From Methanolobus vulcani (GTDB lineage: Archaea; Halobacteriota; Methanosarcinia; Methanosarcinales; Methanosarcinaceae), in the NCBI RefSeq assembly GCF_900100715.1, contig NZ_FNCA01000002.1, forward strand, positions 310,001 through 374,000: a stretch of 64,000 nucleotides of DNA, in the 5' to 3' direction. The translations under genes were made by a program, and so were the position numbers. Positions 6,613-53,514 of this stretch are shown piece after piece. Numbering within the stretch: position 1 is the first letter of the stretch; each line of letters begins with the position of its first letter. Below the pieces are notes generated by a model that made no database searches, was not told the origin of the DNA, and was given only the letters and a program-made list of their open reading frames with translations.

Positions 6613-7497
6613 ATGAAAATAGCTATCGCAAGTGGTAAAGGTGGTACCGGGAAGACCACAGTGGCTGTGAATTTTGCCCTTGCGATAGGCGATGCCCAGC
6701 TTTTTGACTGCGATGTTGAAGAGCCAAATTGCAATCTTTTTCTTGGTTTGGACCTTGAAAAACAGGAAGATGTCAGCATCGCTGTCCCTGAGATTAATAC
6801 TGAAAAATGCAGTCTTTGTGGAAGTTGTGTAGAATTCTGCCACTATAACGCAATAGCAAAACTTCCTCGAAGTGTCATGATCTTTCCCAAACTTTGTCAT
6901 GGTTGTGGGGGATGCCATATAGTATGTCCTGAAAATGCCATCTCAGAGATCAAACGGCCAATAGGAATGATTGAAAAAGGAGTTGATCCCGGTTCAGGAA
7001 TAAGTTTTTTCCAGGGAACACTTGGAATTGGTGAACCAATGGCAACTCCTGTTATAAGGCGGTTACAGGCACACATGGATGAAAACAAGGTTGCTGTCGT
7101 CGACTCTCCTCCGGGGACCGCATGTCCCGTAATAGCAACCGTTGGGGAAATGGATTACTGTGTGCTTGTAACCGAGCCTACTCCTTTCGGACTCAATGAC
7201 CTTATTCTTGCCGTAAATGTAGTAAGGCAACTGGAGGTTCCCCTTGGTGTTATCATTAACAGACATGGCTCTGGAGATGATAGTGTAGAGGAATATTGTT
7301 ATTCTGAGAATATTCCAATCCTGATGAAGATCCCATATGATCGGGAAATAGCAGTTCTCTATTCAGAAGGAATCCCTTTTGTGCAGCGTATGCCGCAGTG
7401 GAAAGAAAAATTCCGGTCACTTTATGAAAAGATTTGTTTCATTTCATCGGAAAACACATCGCAATACTCTTGTTCCGGAGTGAGAAATCAATGGTGA
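6613..7497 (+). CDS. MinD-superfamily ATPase with inserted ferredoxin domain (first copy)
   Basis: A 294-residue P-loop ATPase with the deviant Walker A motif SGKGGTGKTT, interrupted near residues 60-110 by two 4Fe-4S motifs (CSLCGSCVEFC and CHGCGGCHIVC). Later come DSPPGTACP and TEPTPFGLNDL. This is the COG1149 family. Members occur in tandem pairs in anaerobes and are assumed to couple ATP hydrolysis to Fe-S cluster handling or electron transfer; no precise reaction is established. The last codons overlap the start of the second copy by seven bases (ATGGTGA), which indicates translational coupling. Confidence 0.92.
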   Translation: MKIAIASGKGGTGKTTVAVNFALAIGDAQLFDCDVEEPNCNLFLGLDLEKQEDVSIAVPEINTEKCSLCGSCVEFCHYNAIAKLPRSVMIFPKLCHGCGGCHIVCPENAISEIKRPIGMIEKGVDPGSGISFFQGTLGIGEPMATPVIRRLQAHMDENKVAVVDSPPGTACPVIATVGEMDYCVLVTEPTPFGLNDLILAVNVVRQLEVPLGVIINRHGSGDDSVEEYCYSENIPILMKIPYDREIAVLYSEGIPFVQRMPQWKEKFRSLYEKICFISSENTSQYSCSGVRNQW

Positions 7498-8402
7498 AAC
7501 AGTTAACCGTGATAAGTGGAAAAGGTGGAACCGGCAAGACAACTTTTACTTCATCCTTTGCTGCCCTTGCAGAAAATGCAGTTATAGCCGACTGCGATGT
7601 TGATGCTGCTGATATGCATCTGATATTGCAACCTGAAATATCTGAGATTCATAATTTCTTTGGTCTGGATGTTGCCAGTATTAATAAGGAATTGTGTACA
7701 GCTTGCGGAATTTGTGTTTCTTCTTGCAGATTTGATGCAATAGATTCTAACCAAGTGGTAGATACATACAAATGCGAAGGCTGTGGTGTGTGCGAGCATG
7801 TCTGCCCGGAAGATGCTGTCAGTATGATTGCGAAGAAGGCAGGGGAATACTATTGTTCAAACACAAGATTTGGTCCACTTGTTCATGCAAAACTTGGAAT
7901 TGGTGAAGAAGCAAGTGGTAAGCTTGTATCTGATGTACGTCGTCGTGCTTCTGAGCTCGCAGAACAAAGTGGCAAGGATCTGATTGTAATCGATGGTCCT
8001 CCTGGGACCGGATGTGCTGTCATAGCTGCTATCACAGGTACTGATCTGGTACTTGTGGTCACAGAACCCACAAAATCCGGTGTACACGATCTTGAAAGGG
8101 TTGTGCAGGTGGCACAGCATTTCAGGATTCCTGTTGCAGTCTGCATAAACAAATATGATATAAATAAGAGACTTTCCGTTTCTATATGTGAATATTGCAA
8201 AGACAATAATATTCCTGTTCTTGGAATGCTTCCCTATGATAATATTGTTATTGAAGCAATGATAGCAGGAAGTTCTGTAGTCGAATATTCTGGTGCTAAA
8301 TTCTCAGAAGGGATCAGGTCAGTCTGGAATAGTCTTGTATCTATCCTTTTTCAGGAAGAAAAAGAAGATATCATTAGATTGATACAAAAAAGCGAAAAAT
8401 AA
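7491..8402 (+). CDS. MinD-superfamily ATPase with inserted ferredoxin domain (second copy)
   Basis: The 303-residue paralogue of the preceding gene. Walker A is SGKGGTGKTT; two 4Fe-4S motifs (CTACGICVSSC and CEGCGVCEHVC) interrupt the ATPase fold, followed by DGPPGTGCAVIA and TEPTKSGVHDL. The start is the ATG at 7491, preceded by CCGGAGTGAG; a frame opening at 7434 would overlap the upstream gene much more. The tandem arrangement suggests a heterodimeric ATPase acting with the two NifX-like proteins. It is the last gene of the operon, and the next gene runs toward it. Confidence 0.92.
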   Translation: MVKQLTVISGKGGTGKTTFTSSFAALAENAVIADCDVDAADMHLILQPEISEIHNFFGLDVASINKELCTACGICVSSCRFDAIDSNQVVDTYKCEGCGVCEHVCPEDAVSMIAKKAGEYYCSNTRFGPLVHAKLGIGEEASGKLVSDVRRRASELAEQSGKDLIVIDGPPGTGCAVIAAITGTDLVLVVTEPTKSGVHDLERVVQVAQHFRIPVAVCINKYDINKRLSVSICEYCKDNNIPVLGMLPYDNIVIEAMIAGSSVVEYSGAKFSEGIRSVWNSLVSILFQEEKEDIIRLIQKSEK

Positions 8403-8470: not shown

Positions 8471-9919
8471 TTATTCTTTCTTTCTCTTAATCAGGAATGC
8501 CAGTCCAAGCATTGGAACGAGGGCAACTGCTTCAAATCCTGGTATTCCCGAACCTTCTTCAGAAGTCGTCTCCTCTTTTTGCTCATCAGCAGTTGTTGTT
8601 GCTTCTGTGGTATCAGTCTCGACAACAGTTTCTGTGTCTGCAGCAGTGGTTGCTGTTTCTCCTGGTACGACTATGGCAAATGGAGAGAATCCCGGGGTCG
8701 ATGAAGTGAAGTAGACATAGTCGTTGTCATCATCTGTTACCGCTGTCTCAAGTTCATCCCATTGTGTGGTATACCTCATCAATCTTATATTAACAGGATC
8801 AATGCCATTCTCATTCAGCCATGATTTCTCGACTGCAAAAGAGATCTGCGGATTGGCTATAGTGCTTGAGCTTGCCCATCCGGCCTTCCCGACCCAGATG
8901 TTCATGTATCTGTAAATATTACCATTTGGTTTGCTGTCTGAATATGCTGATTTGTCGTGCAGCACCTCAATTGTAACGTCAGTATATCCTGCATTTATCA
9001 GTGGCATGAAAGAGATTTCCTTTATGGGGTTCTGTTCTTCGGTGAACTCATAAAGTGATTCCACATCTTTCTGCACATATATCTTCTTAACATCCTTCAT
9101 GGCAATGTTCTCATATTCTTCACCACTGGCTCCTCCACCGCCACCGCCTCCTCCGCTACTGCTTGATGATGTAGAAGAGGAGCTGGACTCAGGTCCGGTA
9201 ACTGACGAAGTAGTGGTAACACTACCTCCGGGGATTGTTGATGTCACTGTAAGGGTAAAGGTGTTGCTGGATGCAGGGCTGTCAGCTGTAACTGTCCATG
9301 AACCTGAACTTGATGCAGTAGGTGCAATGGTTCCTAGGGTTGCAGGGTCCGTTCCGCTGCTAAGGCTCCATCCGCTTGGCAATGTCAGGTCAACCTTCAC
9401 ATTTGTAGCATCTGCAGCGCCTACCGATGCACTATTGGATACCACATAACTAATGACAACATCGTCTCCTGCAGATACTGATGAAACATCTGTGCTGGAA
9501 TCGATTGTCAGTACAGGTCTGTCTTTTACAGTAATGGCAGTAGATGAGATCTTAGCGTTGCTGCTTCCATCATCACCAGATGCTGATATCGTAAAGGGCG
9601 ATGCACTTGTTCCCGTGGAAGCTGCAGTAACAGTCCATGATATGGATTTGGTACCATCGCTTGTGAATTGTACCTGTTGTGTAGGGCTTGGCACTGTGAA
9701 CTGCCCGGAATTGTCAGAAAGTGTCAAGTCCACTGTCAGTGTGCCTGAAACACTTGCAGCAGTTACAGTTGAAGTAATAGTTATGCTCTCATCCTTCACA
9801 ACACTACTGTCGTAGTTGATACTTCCAATACTCAGGGAAGCAGTTGCAGAAGCAGTGGAAATTGTTCCCACTGCAATTAACATGGCCAGAAAAATCAATG
9901 CTATTCCTTTACTTCTCAT
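8471..9919 (-). CDS. PGF-CTERM surface protein with PGF-pre-PGF domain
   Basis: A 482-residue secreted protein. After a signal peptide (about 1-26) come two beta-sandwich-like Ser/Thr-rich domains (about 27-245), a Ser/Gly linker with an eight-glycine run, a PGF-pre-PGF-type domain (about 270-420), a Thr/Glu-rich stalk and a C-terminal sorting signal (IPGFEAVALVPMLGLAFLI, then KRKKE). The signal fits archaeosortase A processing with lipid anchoring, and artA is encoded at 52699-53514. The ATG at 9919 shares its first base with the stop of the giant upstream gene (TGATG), and GGAGGTG precedes it. The protein probably links that partner to the membrane, which is an inference. Confidence 0.88.
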   Translation of the reverse strand: MRSKGIALIFLAMLIAVGTISTASATASLSIGSINYDSSVVKDESITITSTVTAASVSGTLTVDLTLSDNSGQFTVPSPTQQVQFTSDGTKSISWTVTAASTGTSASPFTISASGDDGSSNAKISSTAITVKDRPVLTIDSSTDVSSVSAGDDVVISYVVSNSASVGAADATNVKVDLTLPSGWSLSSGTDPATLGTIAPTASSSGSWTVTADSPASSNTFTLTVTSTIPGGSVTTTSSVTGPESSSSSTSSSSSGGGGGGGGASGEEYENIAMKDVKKIYVQKDVESLYEFTEEQNPIKEISFMPLINAGYTDVTIEVLHDKSAYSDSKPNGNIYRYMNIWVGKAGWASSSTIANPQISFAVEKSWLNENGIDPVNIRLMRYTTQWDELETAVTDDDNDYVYFTSSTPGFSPFAIVVPGETATTAADTETVVETDTTEATTTADEQKEETTSEEGSGIPGFEAVALVPMLGLAFLIKRKKE

Positions 9920-12900
9920 CAATATCCACCTCCCATGGGGTCTCCTGCCATATCTCCACTGTCATACATGTTCATCTTGTCACTATTGACTCTATAGAAA
10001 TTGATCTTAAGGATCTCTTCTCCTCCAGATTGTTTATTCACACTTACAAAAGCTGTGTATTCTCCAAAATCATAGTTTATATCTCCCATGTCTTCAGACT
10101 TAATCTCAAGGATTCCCTCACCGTCCACAAGTGTGGCATTGATCATTGCAGAGCTCATATTCCAAGTAACTGGCAGATCAGCAGCCATTCCTTCATCATA
10201 TGTTCCTCCAAATGTCATCTTCAGGGATTTGAGTTCGGCATTACCTTCAACAGGTGTACCATCAAAGTCCCTTGCGGTGACGAATATCGTGATGCTGTCA
10301 TTTACATCAAGCTCTGTTGCCGGTGCAAAAGATTTTAGCACTGCGGTATTCGTACTGTCATTGATCTTCAGAGTAGGGAAAGATATTGGCCAGCTATCCA
10401 TATTGCCTGTACCTATTTCGGATGCAGTCCTCTCAGACATGTTCACTGTTACGATACTGTCACCAATTGACTCAGGTATGGAATCTCCATATCCCATTTC
10501 GGTAGTATATAGATCATAAATTGAATTCAGGTCCATATAGTTCTGCCAGTCTCTCAGTGTAGTAAGGTCAGCATCGTCATCGTATGTAGCTTCGGTAGGC
10601 ATATTGATTCCGTTTGCAAGACAATCAATGAGTAATATGTGATATCGATCATCTGAGGTTATCTCTCCAACACCGGCCGGTGCTGAACCACTGTCAAACA
10701 TACTGCCTGCTGATGCAATATCCATTCCCAGGTCTTCATCACTGAATGTTCCTGTATAGAAGATCGGATCATCTGATACCCATTCCGGTACAGGGTATAC
10801 CTGGGTGACACTACCATTGAACAGGATGAACTTTCCTCCCCATGTGGATACTGATGCCACATAGTAGTCGTTGAATCCATTGATACTTTCTCCAATGCGA
10901 TATTTGTCTGCATCACTGAAGTCACTTGCATTCACGACAAGCACACTGTCCTTTGTGTTAATGTAGGAGTTTGTCATCAGATCATACATGGTGCCTGCTT
11001 CGTCCTCATAACCAAAGATGTAATATTCCTGGTTATTGAAGTTCACCTGTGTCACAGCTCCTGAATAGGCTTTTGTTTCACCATTTGCGGTATTTCCATC
11101 TATCAGGGTTTCAGCAGCGTCCATTGTAAGGATCATCAGCGGATACCTGAGGGTCAGTGTAACATTGGCATCGGTCACATTTGTGACTTCGAAATCAAAT
11201 CCTCCCATCCAATATGTATCACCTTCAGTAAATGACTGTGTCTCAGGCTGTGAATTCCAGCTATATCCTGGAACTGTCCACGGCCATCCTACATAGGACA
11301 TTGCTACAGTCGCTGTTCCTCCGGATGAAGCTGTCAGAGTAAAATTCCACATATCATTATAGAATAGTGTGTTCTCACTCAGGTTCAGAACCACTGTGTC
11401 TCCTGTGTTATGTATCTGTGTGACATTATAATCCAGGTTGATGGTTGCACGACTTGAGTTGACAATTGAACCAGTTCCAATATCTCCTGCTACAAAGGTT
11501 GCTCCTCCGTCTGCAGAATAATTGAATGAACCTGTAGTACTGTTATAATACCATTCATCGAAAGGCCAGTTCAGGTTATACTTATCCTCGGGTCCGTAAT
11601 TATAGGCAGAAACACCTTTTACAAACTCCACCTCATCTCCGTATGCAAGAAGCATATTATTTCCAGGTACACCATCGCCGCTATTATCATCACTCAGCTT
11701 GATGAGTCCTACCTGTCCTGGAGTTCCAAGTGCTCCTGCAACAATAAAGTTACGTAGGTCAAAGCGTGAAAGTTCCCAGAACATCTCTTCGTTTGCAACC
11801 GCATACTCGCTTCCAATGGTGACATTGTAGTGTATCATCCATGAACCGGTTGGTATGTTTACTTCTGATGAGTTAATCTCAAGAAGTGCCAGTCCGCCGG
11901 AGGTTGTGGTTGTATTAACGTTCTCCAGATTATAGACTACCTTGCTTTCATCTATCAGGTAATCTATCTTCACTTCCTTATTTGCCAGAGCTTGTCCTGA
12001 CGGTGTTGTCACAAGGAATGGTATCTTTATTACAGAACCGTTGCTGAATGTTCCAAGGTTCATTCCATTCCAGCCTTTACTATATGTGCTGAATTCCAGC
12101 TGGTATGAAGAAGACTGGTACTTGTTGCTGAGCAGATATATCGGATTACCCCCAAACTGTATCGGTTCGCCTGCACTTGCATCTACATAACCTGCTGAGA
12201 AATTATAGGAGTTACTGACAAGAACTTTATCATACGTTCCGGATGTAATGGAATCTGCCATAAGTACGATATAATTGTCCTCATAGTATTCACCGTCTCC
12301 GTCAAGATCGATATTCTGCCATTCATCATCATGGAAATTGCTCATAAGGAATTTTCCAGACTTGCTCATTGCCATGATGCTCTGGTTTAGCATCACACCA
12401 TTTTTCAGAGTGTTCTGTCCTTCAAGTTCAATAGTTCCGTCTGATCTGATCTCGGTGATGGTCCATGTCCTTCCAGTGTAGTCAGTGAATGATGAACCTA
12501 CGGATTCATTGAATACCTGGGTTGCTGTATCGTCAGAAAGATTGCCTATCATATTAGAGTTATCTGTTACATTCTCATATTCAACGTAGATCGTGTCACG
12601 GACAGAATCCACAACCACCATTGAATAATATGGTACAAAACTATGGTTCCATGAATCATCACCCATGATCTCATAGCTACTTGTAACAGGCGATATATCA
12701 TTTCCACCAATGATTCTGCCACTGATCTTTCCTGCACTGACATTACCAATACTTTGTAATTGGTTCTTTTTTGTCAGTATATCGGTTGTGGCATTGATCG
12801 ATGTAACATTGGTGTAGTACTGAGCAGAACTGATACTTATTCTCATTGGGTTAGTAATAGTGACACTGGCAAGTTTAAGCTGGAACCAGAAATCAGTATA

Positions 12901-15900
12901 TACTTCGTTGTTTTCCTCATCTGTGACCTTAAGTGTCATCATGTAGGCACCCTGCCCCCAGCCACTGGTGTTAATGGATACATTGATCTCATTTGGATCT
13001 ATGCCGGCTTCTGTAGTAGTTATACCTGCCATCTGACTCTTTGTCTTGTAGCTGGTCATCCACATGCCTTCCTGCATGACATTCTCAACGGTCACGTTTG
13101 TAATGTTATGAGAACTGCTTCCCCACATCTGATCCTCAGATGCCTTTACAGTGACATTGATGAACCCACTTGTCGGGAACTCGTTTATCCAGTTGGAATC
13201 GACCCATGTTACAAACGCTGTGGTATGTACCCATGCGCTTCCTACCTCAGTGGTGTTCCCATCGGTTGCCTCGAATATGAATTCAAAGTTTCCTCCTCTG
13301 GAAACTCCAGGGTATTCATAGTATCCTGTTCCGTTGATACTTCCGATTTCAACCTCTGTATCATTGTACATGGTTGGCGGTGTCATCATGTCCCAATCTC
13401 CCATGGAAATTACTTTCTTAAGGGTGATGTTAACTTCTTTTGCATTGAAGCTGCTATCAAAGGCATTCAGTGTGAAGTTAATGGGTTGATCGATTCCGGC
13501 TTCCCATGAGGTGGAATATGGATTGAATATGAAATTGCTGACTTCGAACCATCCATTTCCATAGTCAATGATACCATCTTGTGTTGTCATTTTTATTCTG
13601 ACACTGTAGAATCCTGACTTCAGACTATTGGATGCTGAGACAGTCAATGTGGCATCGCCATTGGAGTTAGTTGTAACCGAAGTTGCTGAATCTGTAATAG
13701 AAATACTTTCTCCTGTCATTGAATACTTCACATCTTTAACTTCCAGTGAAGCAGAAGATACATTGTTTCCACTTATGTCCTGTATATGTACTGAAAGCTC
13801 AATGGTGTCATCTGCTCCGAATACCTTGTACATATTGGAGTTGTCATCAAAGACCGGATTGGCTTTTATCTTATAGAGTTTCTCATCGAACCATCCGTCA
13901 CCTATTACTGTTTTTGGAGTTCCGTCAACAGTAGCATTGACCCAGAATTTGACGTAATGGAAGCCCAGGTATGAGTCCGTAACATTGAATTTGAGGACTT
14001 TCTTATCACCTACAAAAGGCATATTGATGGTTGTCAGTACAGGGTCTTCCATGTATTCGGTCACGACCTCTGATGCACTATCACTCCAGGCCTCGATAAG
14101 TCCTACATCATTGATGTCAGATGCCGGTATTTCCAATCCTGTAGATGGATCGAATGCGGTGATCATTATCCTTGCCGTGGAGTTTGGAGCTACCGTAGGG
14201 CTGAACCATCCCATCTTGTTTACAGGTTCACCATGGACGAACATGTCCTGCACGGTAATACTTCTGCCTGCACTATTCCATTGGGAGATATTAACTCTTA
14301 CAAGTGTGTCATATACTCCATTTTGTGATGGCGTTGTGAAGTTGATTACAGCAAATGTATTTCCAATTGTCTTTTCAACTTCATCCTGGATATCTGATGG
14401 TACACTCAAATATGTAAAGAATGTACTCGCATTCATCAGTGACCAGTCAGTGATGAATTCATCTCCATTGTTATTGGTGATGTTCAGCCTGAACTTTTCA
14501 CTGTCAAGTTCGGTCATGGCCTCAAAATCAATATTTTCACCACTGCTGAGATTTGTTCCGGCTATTACCAAAAATCCCTCTTCTCCCGGTGCAAAACCGT
14601 CACTTTCCCCGTCATTCTTCGAAATTACTTTCAGAAATATCTCATACGCTTTGATGTTATAACTGGTATATGCTTTCTGGGTCTGGCTGTTTGTAACAGC
14701 TTCATATTCTACATAATATGTGTCTATCTCTTCACCAGCCGGAATTGTATAACTCGCAGTGTATGCACCTATATCACTATCGTATTCCAATTCCAGTTCA
14801 TTGAGGTATGATGCATTGTTCTTACTCGTGATATCAGCAGTTACTGTAGCTGTAGAAAGTGGTTCTCCTGAACTGATATTTGTCAAGTAGACAACTGGTA
14901 CTATTACCTCTCCACGGGCAAATGTGTGTTTTGGTGTGTTTTCGGTTGAGAGCATGTCACCGAACATGTTCATTGTGTTAACAACATATGATATGTGTCC
15001 AATATCTTCTGCTACCAGATGGTAGGTGCCCGCAACACTGGAAACTGTCATGGTTGTTGTGTTAAGCCCCATGGAGTTTGTTACAAGTTCTTTGCTGGAT
15101 ATGGATGTACCATTGTCCCTCAGGTTTTCAAGTGTAATGGTTCCTTCTATGGGTACACCACTGGCGTTTAGTGTGAGAACAGTAACATTAACACTTTGTC
15201 CGCCTGTGAAACTGGGTGTTATGGTCTTTGCCAGTGTAATTCCATTTTGTTTGTTAATGTTTATGAATTTATAGTCCACTCCGTTCAATTTAACTTTTGA
15301 TCCTTCTATAAGGTTCCCGATCACACTTATGCCTGTACTATCCGTACCCAGACTCATATCGGGGTCATCATCTACGTAGGCAACTTCATCATCAGATACC
15401 AGAAAATAGTATGTGGTACTTCCCAAAAGGGCTGATCCACCTGTTTTACTCTGATTGAGGGAACCAGTTATTCCATGATCCGCAGATAATGATACACTGA
15501 CGATGTCCCCTTCAGTGAATCTCACTTCTATGGTCTGAGGATCATTTTCTCCTACCACTGTCATATACAGATAAGGTGAAACGACACCAGTTTCGATGTC
15601 CACTGCAACCACAGTGTAACCACCTGAATCTGCAGGTACGGTCATTGTTGTTGAGAACGCACCTCCGGAAGCGGTGATTGTTTTATTTGATAATTGGTTT
15701 GCAGGATCAGTAAATTCGTAACCTGTGGGCCATATTATTATTTTTACTTCTCCAGTTTCATTACCGTCCTGAATTTCACCGGTAACCCTCATTGAGTCTC
15801 CGGCACCGTATGTTCTTCCGTCTATACTGAACTTCTGGATAGATGTAGCTGAAGCTAAAGGATTTATCAGCAATAATATCGCAGTAGTCAAAAGTACCAG

Positions 15901-15948
15901 GATGGCAATCCTGTTGTATTTTTTCAAATATTGTTTAGCACGATTCAT
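9919..15948 (-). CDS. giant secreted protein, 2009 residues, no visible anchor
   Basis: The N-terminus has a basic region and hydrophobic signal sequence (AILVLLTTAILLLINPLASA). Most of the rest reads as many Ig-like or MG2-like beta-sandwich domains, with phrases such as GDYTAFV-type edges, VTITNPMRI and FEFIFEATDGNT. N-glycosylation sequons (NVT, NMS, NGS) are frequent throughout. The C-terminus (NMYDSGDMAGDPMGGGY) has no transmembrane segment, PGF or PEF sorting signal, or S-layer anchor. It is the upstream gene of a coupled pair with the PGF-CTERM protein. I recognise no catalytic motif; an adhesin, sheath or outer-layer role is plausible but unproven. Confidence 0.85.
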   Translation of the reverse strand: MNRAKQYLKKYNRIAILVLLTTAILLLINPLASATSIQKFSIDGRTYGAGDSMRVTGEIQDGNETGEVKIIIWPTGYEFTDPANQLSNKTITASGGAFSTTMTVPADSGGYTVVAVDIETGVVSPYLYMTVVGENDPQTIEVRFTEGDIVSVSLSADHGITGSLNQSKTGGSALLGSTTYYFLVSDDEVAYVDDDPDMSLGTDSTGISVIGNLIEGSKVKLNGVDYKFININKQNGITLAKTITPSFTGGQSVNVTVLTLNASGVPIEGTITLENLRDNGTSISSKELVTNSMGLNTTTMTVSSVAGTYHLVAEDIGHISYVVNTMNMFGDMLSTENTPKHTFARGEVIVPVVYLTNISSGEPLSTATVTADITSKNNASYLNELELEYDSDIGAYTASYTIPAGEEIDTYYVEYEAVTNSQTQKAYTSYNIKAYEIFLKVISKNDGESDGFAPGEEGFLVIAGTNLSSGENIDFEAMTELDSEKFRLNITNNNGDEFITDWSLMNASTFFTYLSVPSDIQDEVEKTIGNTFAVINFTTPSQNGVYDTLVRVNISQWNSAGRSITVQDMFVHGEPVNKMGWFSPTVAPNSTARIMITAFDPSTGLEIPASDINDVGLIEAWSDSASEVVTEYMEDPVLTTINMPFVGDKKVLKFNVTDSYLGFHYVKFWVNATVDGTPKTVIGDGWFDEKLYKIKANPVFDDNSNMYKVFGADDTIELSVHIQDISGNNVSSASLEVKDVKYSMTGESISITDSATSVTTNSNGDATLTVSASNSLKSGFYSVRIKMTTQDGIIDYGNGWFEVSNFIFNPYSTSWEAGIDQPINFTLNAFDSSFNAKEVNITLKKVISMGDWDMMTPPTMYNDTEVEIGSINGTGYYEYPGVSRGGNFEFIFEATDGNTTEVGSAWVHTTAFVTWVDSNWINEFPTSGFINVTVKASEDQMWGSSSHNITNVTVENVMQEGMWMTSYKTKSQMAGITTTEAGIDPNEINVSINTSGWGQGAYMMTLKVTDEENNEVYTDFWFQLKLASVTITNPMRISISSAQYYTNVTSINATTDILTKKNQLQSIGNVSAGKISGRIIGGNDISPVTSSYEIMGDDSWNHSFVPYYSMVVVDSVRDTIYVEYENVTDNSNMIGNLSDDTATQVFNESVGSSFTDYTGRTWTITEIRSDGTIELEGQNTLKNGVMLNQSIMAMSKSGKFLMSNFHDDEWQNIDLDGDGEYYEDNYIVLMADSITSGTYDKVLVSNSYNFSAGYVDASAGEPIQFGGNPIYLLSNKYQSSSYQLEFSTYSKGWNGMNLGTFSNGSVIKIPFLVTTPSGQALANKEVKIDYLIDESKVVYNLENVNTTTTSGGLALLEINSSEVNIPTGSWMIHYNVTIGSEYAVANEEMFWELSRFDLRNFIVAGALGTPGQVGLIKLSDDNSGDGVPGNNMLLAYGDEVEFVKGVSAYNYGPEDKYNLNWPFDEWYYNSTTGSFNYSADGGATFVAGDIGTGSIVNSSRATINLDYNVTQIHNTGDTVVLNLSENTLFYNDMWNFTLTASSGGTATVAMSYVGWPWTVPGYSWNSQPETQSFTEGDTYWMGGFDFEVTNVTDANVTLTLRYPLMILTMDAAETLIDGNTANGETKAYSGAVTQVNFNNQEYYIFGYEDEAGTMYDLMTNSYINTKDSVLVVNASDFSDADKYRIGESINGFNDYYVASVSTWGGKFILFNGSVTQVYPVPEWVSDDPIFYTGTFSDEDLGMDIASAGSMFDSGSAPAGVGEITSDDRYHILLIDCLANGINMPTEATYDDDADLTTLRDWQNYMDLNSIYDLYTTEMGYGDSIPESIGDSIVTVNMSERTASEIGTGNMDSWPISFPTLKINDSTNTAVLKSFAPATELDVNDSITIFVTARDFDGTPVEGNAELKSLKMTFGGTYDEGMAADLPVTWNMSSAMINATLVDGEGILEIKSEDMGDINYDFGEYTAFVSVNKQSGGEEILKINFYRVNSDKMNMYDSGDMAGDPMGGGY

Positions 15949-16211: not shown

Positions 16212-16397
16212 ATGGCCCACTCTGCAAATGGAAACATGGGCTCCTTTGCCCATATAGTACAATCCCTTCCTGATTATTCTGAGCTTATCATAGCTCTGTT
16301 GATACTCATACTGCTACTGATATCTATGGACGAGATCATGGATTTCATCTATATGGTAAGGGATATATTCACTTACAAAAGCATGCCTTTTAGCTGA
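16212..16397 (+). CDS. small single-span membrane protein
   Basis: A 61-residue protein starting MAHSANGNMGSF, with one strongly hydrophobic helix (LIIALLILILLLI) and a short charged tail. The ATG at 16212 has TAGGTGA at good spacing; the frame also extends to 16179. I do not recognise the family. A 7-bp hairpin overlaps its stop codon and supports a real transcription unit. It stands alone between the giant surface protein gene, from which it diverges, and the convergent metallo-beta-lactamase gene. Confidence 0.55.
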   Translation: MAHSANGNMGSFAHIVQSLPDYSELIIALLILILLLISMDEIMDFIYMVRDIFTYKSMPFS

Positions 16398-16433: not shown

Positions 16434-17843
16434 TTATTTATTCTTAAAAGGTGCCCATGGAAGAACGCACATGGGGCATTCAGGTCCAAATCCTGCTGCT
16501 GCATATCCAGTCATACCACCTGCAGCATTCATTACTTTTTCAAAACCGTGTTGAAGGAGGAGGCTACACCCCATTCCTGACCTCTGTCCTGAACCGCATA
16601 TTAATATCGTTTCAGCTTCAGTGTCCAGTTCAATGTATCTTTCTCTTAATTCATGTACGGGAATATTCACTGCCCCTTCAATGTGGAAATCTTCATACTC
16701 GGAAACTTCCCTGACATCCACTATCGTTGTTTTCTTTCCTTTTTGTATTCTGTCATTGAGCTCTGGTGCTGATATCTGGGGGATATGTTTTGCAGCAAAT
16801 CCTTCAGTTACCCATCCGTACATTCCTTGTTCAAGGTATCCTTCAACTTTATCAAGTCCTACGCGGTGCAACTGCTGACACGCATCAAAGGCTTGTGAAT
16901 AGTTGTCCGAAACAAGAAGTATGTTCTTATCAGGTGAAAGTAGCCATCCTGCATAGGTCGGGAAATTTGAATTGATATCTATGTTGTATGAATCCGGGAT
17001 GTGTTGTCCTCCATATGACTCAAAACTGCGAACATCGAGGACTATTGCATCATTCATTCTATTCATGAAAGTATCATTGTTCAGAGCTTCAGGGATTTGC
17101 AGTTCTTTTAACAATTCGGGTCCTTTGCGGTTTACTTCTGTGCATCTGCTAAAATGATCTGGTGCCGAAGGCATGTTATTTGTAAGTGAGCCTATGAATT
17201 CCGGCATGTCATCTATGAGAAGAGCGTAGTTGTACTTTCTTTCATATCCCATTGTGCTGCTTCTTTTTGATGCCATGGACCTTCCACAAAGTGAGCCTGC
17301 ACCATGTGCTGGATATATCTCACAGAATTCAGGTAGGTTGAGTAATTTTTCATGCAGTGTGTCATATAGTTTTGCAGCAAGTTCTTCAGCTCTTCCAGGG
17401 AACAGGTCAGGTCTGCCCACATCTCCCACAAACATCGTGTCACCACAAAATACGGCTACAGGTTCTTTTCCTCTAACTGTATCGACTACTATGTAGGATA
17501 TATGTTCCGGAGTATGGCCAGGAGTTTCTATTATATTGAGTCTGATGTCTTCTATCTCAACAGAATCTCCTTCTGAAAGTGGAATATGTTCAAAATCACA
17601 TTTTGCCTTTTCAGGTGCGTATATTGGTGCGCCTGTTCTTTTTGCGAGGTCTATGTGCCCTGAAATGAAATCTGCATGCAGGTGTGTTTCAAGGATGTGT
17701 GTGATTTTCACTCCCAGTTCTCTTGTAATGTCCAGGTAAATATCAATATCTCTTCTTGGATCAATTATTGCACAAGTTCTGTCGCCCGCTAGTATGTATG
17801 AGCTATGGGCTATTTTTTCGGTAAATATCTGTTGTATTATCAC
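16434..17843 (-). CDS. metallo-beta-lactamase/rhodanese fusion (persulfide dioxygenase-like)
   Basis: A 469-residue protein. The N-terminal metallo-beta-lactamase domain has the metal motif THLHADFISGH, with further ligands in ETPGHTPEH, FCGDTMFVGDVGRPD and YPAHGAGS. Two rhodanese domains follow. The first (IVLDVRSFESY) has no cysteine in its active loop (LLVSDNYSQ), so it is probably inactive. The second has CGSGQRSG and should carry persulfide. The architecture matches ETHE1-like sulfur-transfer enzymes, but activity in a strict anaerobe is uncertain. I chose the GTG at 17843 because GAGGGGAG precedes it; an ATG frame to 17915 would add an unlikely basic leader. Confidence 0.9.
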   Translation of the reverse strand: MIIQQIFTEKIAHSSYILAGDRTCAIIDPRRDIDIYLDITRELGVKITHILETHLHADFISGHIDLAKRTGAPIYAPEKAKCDFEHIPLSEGDSVEIEDIRLNIIETPGHTPEHISYIVVDTVRGKEPVAVFCGDTMFVGDVGRPDLFPGRAEELAAKLYDTLHEKLLNLPEFCEIYPAHGAGSLCGRSMASKRSSTMGYERKYNYALLIDDMPEFIGSLTNNMPSAPDHFSRCTEVNRKGPELLKELQIPEALNNDTFMNRMNDAIVLDVRSFESYGGQHIPDSYNIDINSNFPTYAGWLLSPDKNILLVSDNYSQAFDACQQLHRVGLDKVEGYLEQGMYGWVTEGFAAKHIPQISAPELNDRIQKGKKTTIVDVREVSEYEDFHIEGAVNIPVHELRERYIELDTEAETILICGSGQRSGMGCSLLLQHGFEKVMNAAGGMTGYAAAGFGPECPMCVLPWAPFKNK

Positions 17844-17970
17844 TTCTAACTCCCCTCTACTAATCTGGCATTTTCGCTTTAGTATTTTATGCTGTTTTTT
17901 GGTTTCTTTTTCCATTCGTTCTTCAGTCTACATTCGATCTTGTTTGGAGTATCTACAAAAATATGCTTGA

Positions 17971-52698: not shown

Positions 52699-53514
52699 TT
52701 ATTGGTTTCCTACTACTTTATAGAATAGCTTCTGAAAAAACCCGGTAACCAAAAACCAGATTCCTTCTATCAGGTCTACCAGTTCCGGAAGTATGCGCAT
52801 GACAATGTAAGCGATTACAAATAATGCGATTCCTGATCCTATCTTTGCAATAGTGTGATGTGCTATTTCAAAACTTTCAGGACCAAACCACTGATATCCA
52901 TAGGCTATAATTACAAAAACATCTCTTATTATATTTAAAATATATATGACGGGAACTGATACCATGAATGCTGTAGCAAGTCTTTTGATTGGCGCATTGA
53001 CCGATGAGATCAAACCCATGAAAAGTGCTATACTCTCAATTGCTGTACATGCAAGGATTATCTCTACAGTGTATCCATTAAGTGTTATCTTATTCCAAGT
53101 TACAAGTTCAGCCGGAACATGAAGATATTGCAGGACCAGAAACACAGTATCTGTTACCTGTGATATTATCCATACGTTCAGAAATTCCATTTGTGCAAAT
53201 GGGAAGTAGAACAGAGAACCAAGAGCAGTTGCACTTGTTGCCATTGTTGTGATGTCAGGTGATGGAATACTATCTTCCCTGTATTCTTTGAACATGGTGT
53301 ATGCTATGATCAGGCAAACTATTCCCACAACTATTACCAGAGCTACATTGAAGTAATCTTTGATTTCCATATAATGTGCTGGTTGGTAGAACCAGTGTAT
53401 GGAAAAGAATACCCATCCTGCCGCAGATAACATTCTGCGGGCCTTTACGTTTTTAGGAATTATTGATCCAAGCAGCATAAAAGCCACTGCAATCCATAGA
53501 ACATTCTCGATCAT
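52699..53514 (-). CDS. artA: archaeosortase A
   Basis: A 271-residue polytopic exosortase/archaeosortase protein. The catalytic cysteine is in EIILACTAIES (about residue 156), an arginine in ILNIIRDVFVI (about 197), and a conserved histidine pair in FEIAHHTIAKIG (about 219-220). Archaeosortase A cuts PGF-CTERM proteins and joins them to a lipid. The PGF-CTERM protein at 8471-9919 is a probable substrate. In haloarchaea the adjacent phospholipid enzymes are needed for ArtA processing, so this four-gene cluster makes biological sense. Confidence 0.93.
   Translation of the reverse strand: MIENVLWIAVAFMLLGSIIPKNVKARRMLSAAGWVFFSIHWFYQPAHYMEIKDYFNVALVIVVGIVCLIIAYTMFKEYREDSIPSPDITTMATSATALGSLFYFPFAQMEFLNVWIISQVTDTVFLVLQYLHVPAELVTWNKITLNGYTVEIILACTAIESIALFMGLISSVNAPIKRLATAFMVSVPVIYILNIIRDVFVIIAYGYQWFGPESFEIAHHTIAKIGSGIALFVIAYIVMRILPELVDLIEGIWFLVTGFFQKLFYKVVGNQ

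Follow-up and report, generated by a model that had tools for sequence, protein, structure and literature searches.

A giant secreted protein gene and its smaller partner gene are gained, lost and exchanged as one block in methanogens and methane oxidisers and probably encode a two-part surface system

In the two-protein S-layer of Sulfolobales, SlaA is a soluble, beta-rich and glycosylated protein of 1424 aa, and SlaB is a protein of 475 aa that has beta-sandwich domains and a C-terminal transmembrane segment (PMC10903991). We analysed a window of 64,000 nucleotides from Methanolobus vulcani (GCF_900100715.1, contig NZ_FNCA01000002.1, positions 310,001 to 374,000 of the forward strand), in which the gene of a giant secreted protein is followed by that of a smaller partner, or anchor, protein (Table 1). 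The original prediction had called the pair a system not seen described; no report of it was found in the literature searched, which includes few subscription papers, whereas the principle of a secreted protein plus an anchor was already known from Sulfolobus SlaA/SlaB.

Table 1. Features of the gene pair, its flanks and related loci (positions in the window unless a locus is named)
Feature	Position	Strand	Details
MinD-like 4Fe-4S ATPase gene, convergent downstream flank, marks the site	7485..8402	+
Partner/anchor protein gene	8471..9919	-	482 aa from ATG
PGF, hydrophobic and basic tail, presumed archaeosortase signal	8474..8542	-	by eye
PGF-pre-PGF domain, exchangeable part	8669..9121	-	TIGR04213, E 9e-52, aa 267-417
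Ser/Gly linker (SSSSSTSSSSSGGGGGGGG)	9128..9208	-	about aa 238-264
Constant adaptor module, two beta-sandwich-like domains (second = NPCBM_assoc/NEW3)	9212..9850	-
Anchor signal peptide, ends ASA	9845..9919	-
TGATG stop/start overlap	9917..9921	-	1 nt
Giant secreted protein gene	9919..15948	-	2009 aa, 56 N-glycosylation sequons, 1 Cys, without C-terminal hydrophobic segment
Shine-Dalgarno GGAGGTG of anchor gene	9927..9933	-	7 nt before ATG
MG2 macroglobulin domain in a chain of MG/Ig-like domains	15010..15207	-	PF01835, E 6.5e-10
Giant signal peptide, putative	15847..15948	-	hydrophobic aa 14-32, ASA before conserved SIQKF start; from hydropathy
Metallo-beta-lactamase/rhodanese gene, upstream flank, marks the site	16434..17915	-
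Archaeosortase A (ArtA) gene, separate locus	52699..53514	-	TIGR04125, E 4.8e-82
Subtilase genes of Methanoperedens loci	L044:184-4371, L045:12033-16571, L046:13142-17230, L047:211-4407, L053:13101-17156

At the junction of the two genes, base 9919 is common to the TGA of the giant gene (9921-9919) and the ATG of the anchor gene (9919-9917), and GGAGGTG is encoded within the last Gly codons of the giant (...MGGGY*), so that the predicted overlap with a ribosome-binding motif just upstream was confirmed on the sequence. Experiments in Haloferax showed that translation is coupled across overlaps of 1 or 4 nt, and genes for subunits of heteromeric complexes are over-represented among overlaps of these lengths (PMC10666635). 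Coupling does not prove a 1:1 ratio, and the TGATG overlap does not establish the fixed stoichiometry that had been suggested from it. The overlap by itself is ordinary and not beyond chance, because 7 of 40 same-strand neighbours overlap in this window (12 of 40 lie within 18 nt, rough gene list) and about 15% overlapping neighbours are usual in most prokaryotes (PMC6728339). The upstream gene is 485 nt away from the giant gene and the downstream gene is convergent, an arrangement from which the transcription unit would probably consist of the giant and partner genes alone.

Unlike the overlap itself, the conserved pairing is not ordinary. When strong matches of the partner module (E < 1e-50) and full giants were counted, the giant and the N-terminal module of the partner were present in the identical 20 of 186 genomes of the order, and never one alone; below the strong matches came G067 at 7e-25 (the other half of a partner split over two contigs) and the next at about 1e-12. 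In a sample of the phylum both genes were found again in four ANME-1 genomes, which made 24 pair genomes overall, and the named hosts include Methanolobus profundi, M. bombayensis, several Ca. Methanoperedens and Methanophagales. Across Methanolobus, Ca. Methanoperedens, other Methanosarcinales and ANME-1, the partner started -4 to +18 nt from the giant stop in 23/23 readable junctions, 16 of which had a 1- or 4-nt overlap (GTG/TTG starts accepted) and 22 of which had a Shine-Dalgarno motif. Thus, the pair and its tight junction were conserved among relatives and the genes did not occur independently, the two points on which the original prediction had asked to be checked. Strict coupling is not universal, since about seven of the 23 junctions had short gaps and no overlap. 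Moreover, the giant ends in a near-invariant Gly-Gly, in which GGA came first in 19/22, whereas it makes up 38% of the Gly codons elsewhere (p 5e-6, with related sequences treated as independent); on this codon bias, that part of the protein tail seems to be an imprint of the ribosome-binding site.

Some matches were set aside. The 21st giant match (G027) and several matches of about 1420 aa are alpha-2-macroglobulin lipoproteins with only the MG2 domain in common, and a giant fragment without partner in G341 stops at a contig end, so it is not a clear orphan. In one ANME-1 genome (G354, loci L115 and L122) the giant gene was broken by a TAG and frame breaks, which may reflect gene decay, a fault of the assembly or recoding. 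No relatives of the pair were found in viral contigs and plasmids, and PADLOC gave no match.

The pair was located at one site in seven Methanolobus genomes (usual neighbours, the metallo-beta-lactamase/rhodanese gene and the MinD-like gene), and the site was empty in eight others, where the flanks were 352-405 nt apart and no remnant was present. On the flank tree of Methanolobus, which does not set their direction, at least four joint changes were needed. Outside Methanolobus the flanks differed and the pair was the only unit common to all, and in M. bombayensis (G113) both pair genes were closer to those of G128 than the flanks predict. At one Methanoperedens locus, G046/G044 and G071 had 73-77% identity in the upstream subtilase and 88-96% in the next three downstream genes, whereas the identity was 31% for the giant and 37-40% for the partner and the DNA similarity ended at the edges of the pair; from this difference between flanks (73-96%) and pair genes, we conclude that the pair was swapped as a unit. 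The trees of the giant and the adaptor had 14/20 splits in common, including a fully supported deep split that does not follow species and that parts Methanoperedens, seven with Methanolobus and three with ANME-1 and others. This split could come from horizontal exchange or from ancient paralogy, with both genes together either way. The gene trees and the co-occurrence show co-inheritance, not contact. The two genes are inseparable: lineages gain, lose and exchange them as one block. They probably work as one functional unit, a two-part cell-surface system for which coupled synthesis, tethering and a coat or fibre role are proposed; the original prediction of a two-part surface system is well supported by the same 20 genomes and by the joint gain, loss and swap. 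An alternative, in which the genes overlap merely through close packing and are paired by common descent and nothing more, would be in keeping with the common overlaps of this window (7/40). We give this explanation almost no weight, as the genes remained paired in different families, where they are 31-40% identical and have other flanks, and also after at least four gain/loss changes and one swap, and the joint gain and loss already contradict it.

Three further observations were made around these sites. An ORF at 16212-16397 (forward strand) encodes a 61-aa single-helix membrane protein (MAHSANGNMGSFAHIVQSLPDYSELIIALL...), is strongly conserved at the site in both occupied and empty Methanolobus genomes, and is likely an unannotated small gene. 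In M. bombayensis (L043, G113) the first about 556 aa of the giant and the end of the lactamase/rhodanese gene were seemingly deleted and the partner was intact, which seems to be a loss in progress. At five Methanoperedens loci the giant is directly preceded upstream by the gene of a large surface subtilase, a possible third component, which carries a PGF-pre-PGF domain and, at two of these loci, a DUF1608 S-layer domain.

When characterizing the partner, we found that the signal peptide and the two N-terminal domains, the second of which matches PF10633 (Pfam, E 3.8e-8), were the sole parts present throughout; this adaptor module was conserved in 22/22 partners compared, with strong matches only alongside the giant. 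The Gly/Ser linker and the PGF-pre-PGF domain expected in the partner were borne out, the latter by TIGR04213, whereas the ArtA signal remains a motif recognised by eye, from the layout of PGF, hydrophobic and basic parts in the C-terminus GIPGFEAVALVPMLGLAFLIKRKKE, because neither the Pfam PGF-CTERM model (PF18204) nor an NCBIfam PGF-CTERM model reported the tail at E<=1. Moreover, the PGF-pre-PGF domain and the PGF/ArtA signal named in the original prediction are not the constant parts: PGF was present in 15/19 aligned partners, PGF-pre-PGF was missing or replaced in L052, L053, L055 and ANME-1, and a plain transmembrane helix stood in place of the PGF tail in L046, L047, L054 and ANME-1. 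The G071 partner (L053:5461-6978) was the one exception in which no recognisable membrane anchor was found, and it ends in a GWNLVS/GWNMVG-type region. Loss of ArtA as the reason for loss of the PGF signal was rejected, since ArtA (TIGR04125; match coordinates G000:C13:362732-363502 in this genome) was present in all 24 pair genomes. Because the N-terminal domains are constant and the anchor part is variable, we infer that the giant is held by the adaptor domains; read most simply, the remainder would be an exchangeable membrane fixture. In many other large PGF-pre-PGF ORFs of this genome (the largest of 2712 aa) the domain is present in cis; by its gene layout, the pair would have it supplied in trans.

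Among 17 giants, the number of sequons was 49-80 per protein, which suggests that the giant is probably heavily N-glycosylated, the C-terminal hydrophobic segment was absent from 17/17, and the Pfam domains were MG2, MG4 (in 11/17) and Big_1. AlphaFold2 models of the giant as two halves were of middling confidence (mean pLDDT 71 and 70), and both halves were nearly all-beta. The N-half matched complement C3/C5 and alpha-2-macroglobulins over their consecutive domains MG1-MG4 (Foldseek E 1.8e-24), a match that holds domain by domain (VIA: Z 12.7 over 375 residues, rmsd 16 A), and in the C-half MG-type domains were split by long insertions (C-terminal inserted region about aa 1434-1854). A conserved DLDGDGxYxxD at window 12283-12315 (giant aa ~1212-1222) resembles an EF-hand/dockerin calcium loop.

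Such matches, namely MG2/MG4 and the alignment with consecutive MG1-4 of C3/C5, together with the subtilase directly upstream in five Methanoperedens loci, would suit a complement- or alpha-2-macroglobulin-like defence in which the giant traps proteases or tags intruders and the partner displays it. We regard this as very unlikely: with one Cys in this giant, none in 8/17 relatives and so no conserved CxEQ, the giant is not a thioester protein, and surface proteins of archaea often have MG/Ig folds, a domain of SlaA also resembling C5 (PMC10903991).

The giant might also be held by its own uncleaved N-terminal hydrophobic segment, which would count against tethering by the partner. A self-anchored giant (by this segment or by S-layer binding) next to a separate co-expressed operon protein that does not bind it agrees with the strength of the segment and with the fact that operon neighbours need not be in contact, and is in our opinion unlikely, since a small-x-Ala end follows the segment in nearly all relatives and the perfect co-occurrence, joint swap and congruent trees exceed usual operon membership.

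We prefer the two-part system, in which the pair probably forms an extra surface coat or fibre that the small partner holds to the membrane. In the proposed mechanism, the giant, mostly a chain of macroglobulin/Ig-like beta domains, would be made first and exported by the Sec route without an anchor of its own, and ribosomes ending it would re-initiate at the overlapping, Shine-Dalgarno-preceded partner start, resulting in joint synthesis. The two N-terminal beta domains of the partner would then bind the giant, and its C-terminal part, a linker, usually PGF-pre-PGF and then either the PGF signal for archaeosortase or just a transmembrane helix, would fix the complex to the membrane. Cells would then bear an accessory outer coat or fibre in addition to their usual DUF1608 S-layer. 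Lineages would gain, lose or swap the cassette, which is the behaviour expected when variation of a surface structure is favoured.

Could the pair be the cell wall itself, a two-protein S-layer of the SlaA/SlaB kind with the giant as the chief protein of the lattice and the partner as its stalk? The same division of labour, a partner of similar size (PMC10903991) and the finding of no DUF1608 S-layer gene in the pair-bearing ANME-1 genomes speak for this. However, DUF1608 S-layer genes were present in all 20 Methanosarcinales pair genomes and the pair was missing from most Methanolobus genomes, cleanly at the eight empty sites, so it is not the sole wall in Methanosarcinales; the pair may have a wall role in ANME-1, and overall we consider this explanation improbable. 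Further, we tentatively propose, at somewhat less than even confidence, that the pair is an allele-like exchangeable surface cassette. It would encode a second coat or fibre next to the S-layer, and methanogens and anaerobic methanotrophs would acquire, discard or swap it precisely as a block of two genes. Ancient alleles (clades A and B) would alternate at one locus, as in surface structures on which viruses, partners or self-recognition exert selection.

These results define a probable two-protein surface system, with no earlier description in the literature searched, that methanogens have in common with methane oxidisers of both ANME-1 and Methanoperedens. It is through the outer surface that these organisms meet partners, electron acceptors and viruses. 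Hosts such as Methanolobus profundi are in culture, and removal of either gene is feasible in principle. The pair would also be a second case of an outer protein split from its anchor, apparently unrelated to SlaA/SlaB by sequence, here with evidence that the outer protein and the adaptor domains stay paired and the membrane-anchoring end is freely exchanged.

Compared with alpha-2-macroglobulin and complement proteins, including the archaeal members (PMC8416519), the giant has MG domains in common but is without the thioester CxEQ, is about 2000 aa long and has a constant partner gene. In the VARTIG modules of Thermococcales (PMC8416519), smaller membrane proteins likewise come after a large secreted Ig protein at a variable locus; these modules have variable partner sets and a hypervariable C-terminal domain, whereas our pair has one constant partner and is replaced as a whole. 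The single-chain PGF-CTERM S-layer proteins (Haloferax csg and Methanospirillum Mhun_2263; PMC11641113) also have an Ig-like chain, a spacer and PGF-CTERM anchoring, but canopy and anchor are in one chain, and the anchor of the pair is a second, overlapping gene. With regard to SlaA/SlaB, profiles of the giant and partner against all PDB chain sequences gave nothing useful and no match to SlaA/SlaB, proteins of a kind that diverge fast, and no SlaA/SlaB entries were among the fold matches listed. Nevertheless, we propose by analogy that the pair works like SlaA/SlaB of Sulfolobus without detectable sequence similarity: as in Sulfolobales (PMC10903991, PMC6911244), a large secreted beta-rich protein without membrane anchor stands next to a smaller partner that has beta-sandwich domains between a signal peptide and a C-terminal anchor (exception L053), while the coiled-coil stalk of SlaB is replaced by the Gly/Ser linker and TIGR04213 (or other domains), and the pair is presumed to be lipid-anchored by archaeosortase and is accessory, patchy and found beside a DUF1608 S-layer.
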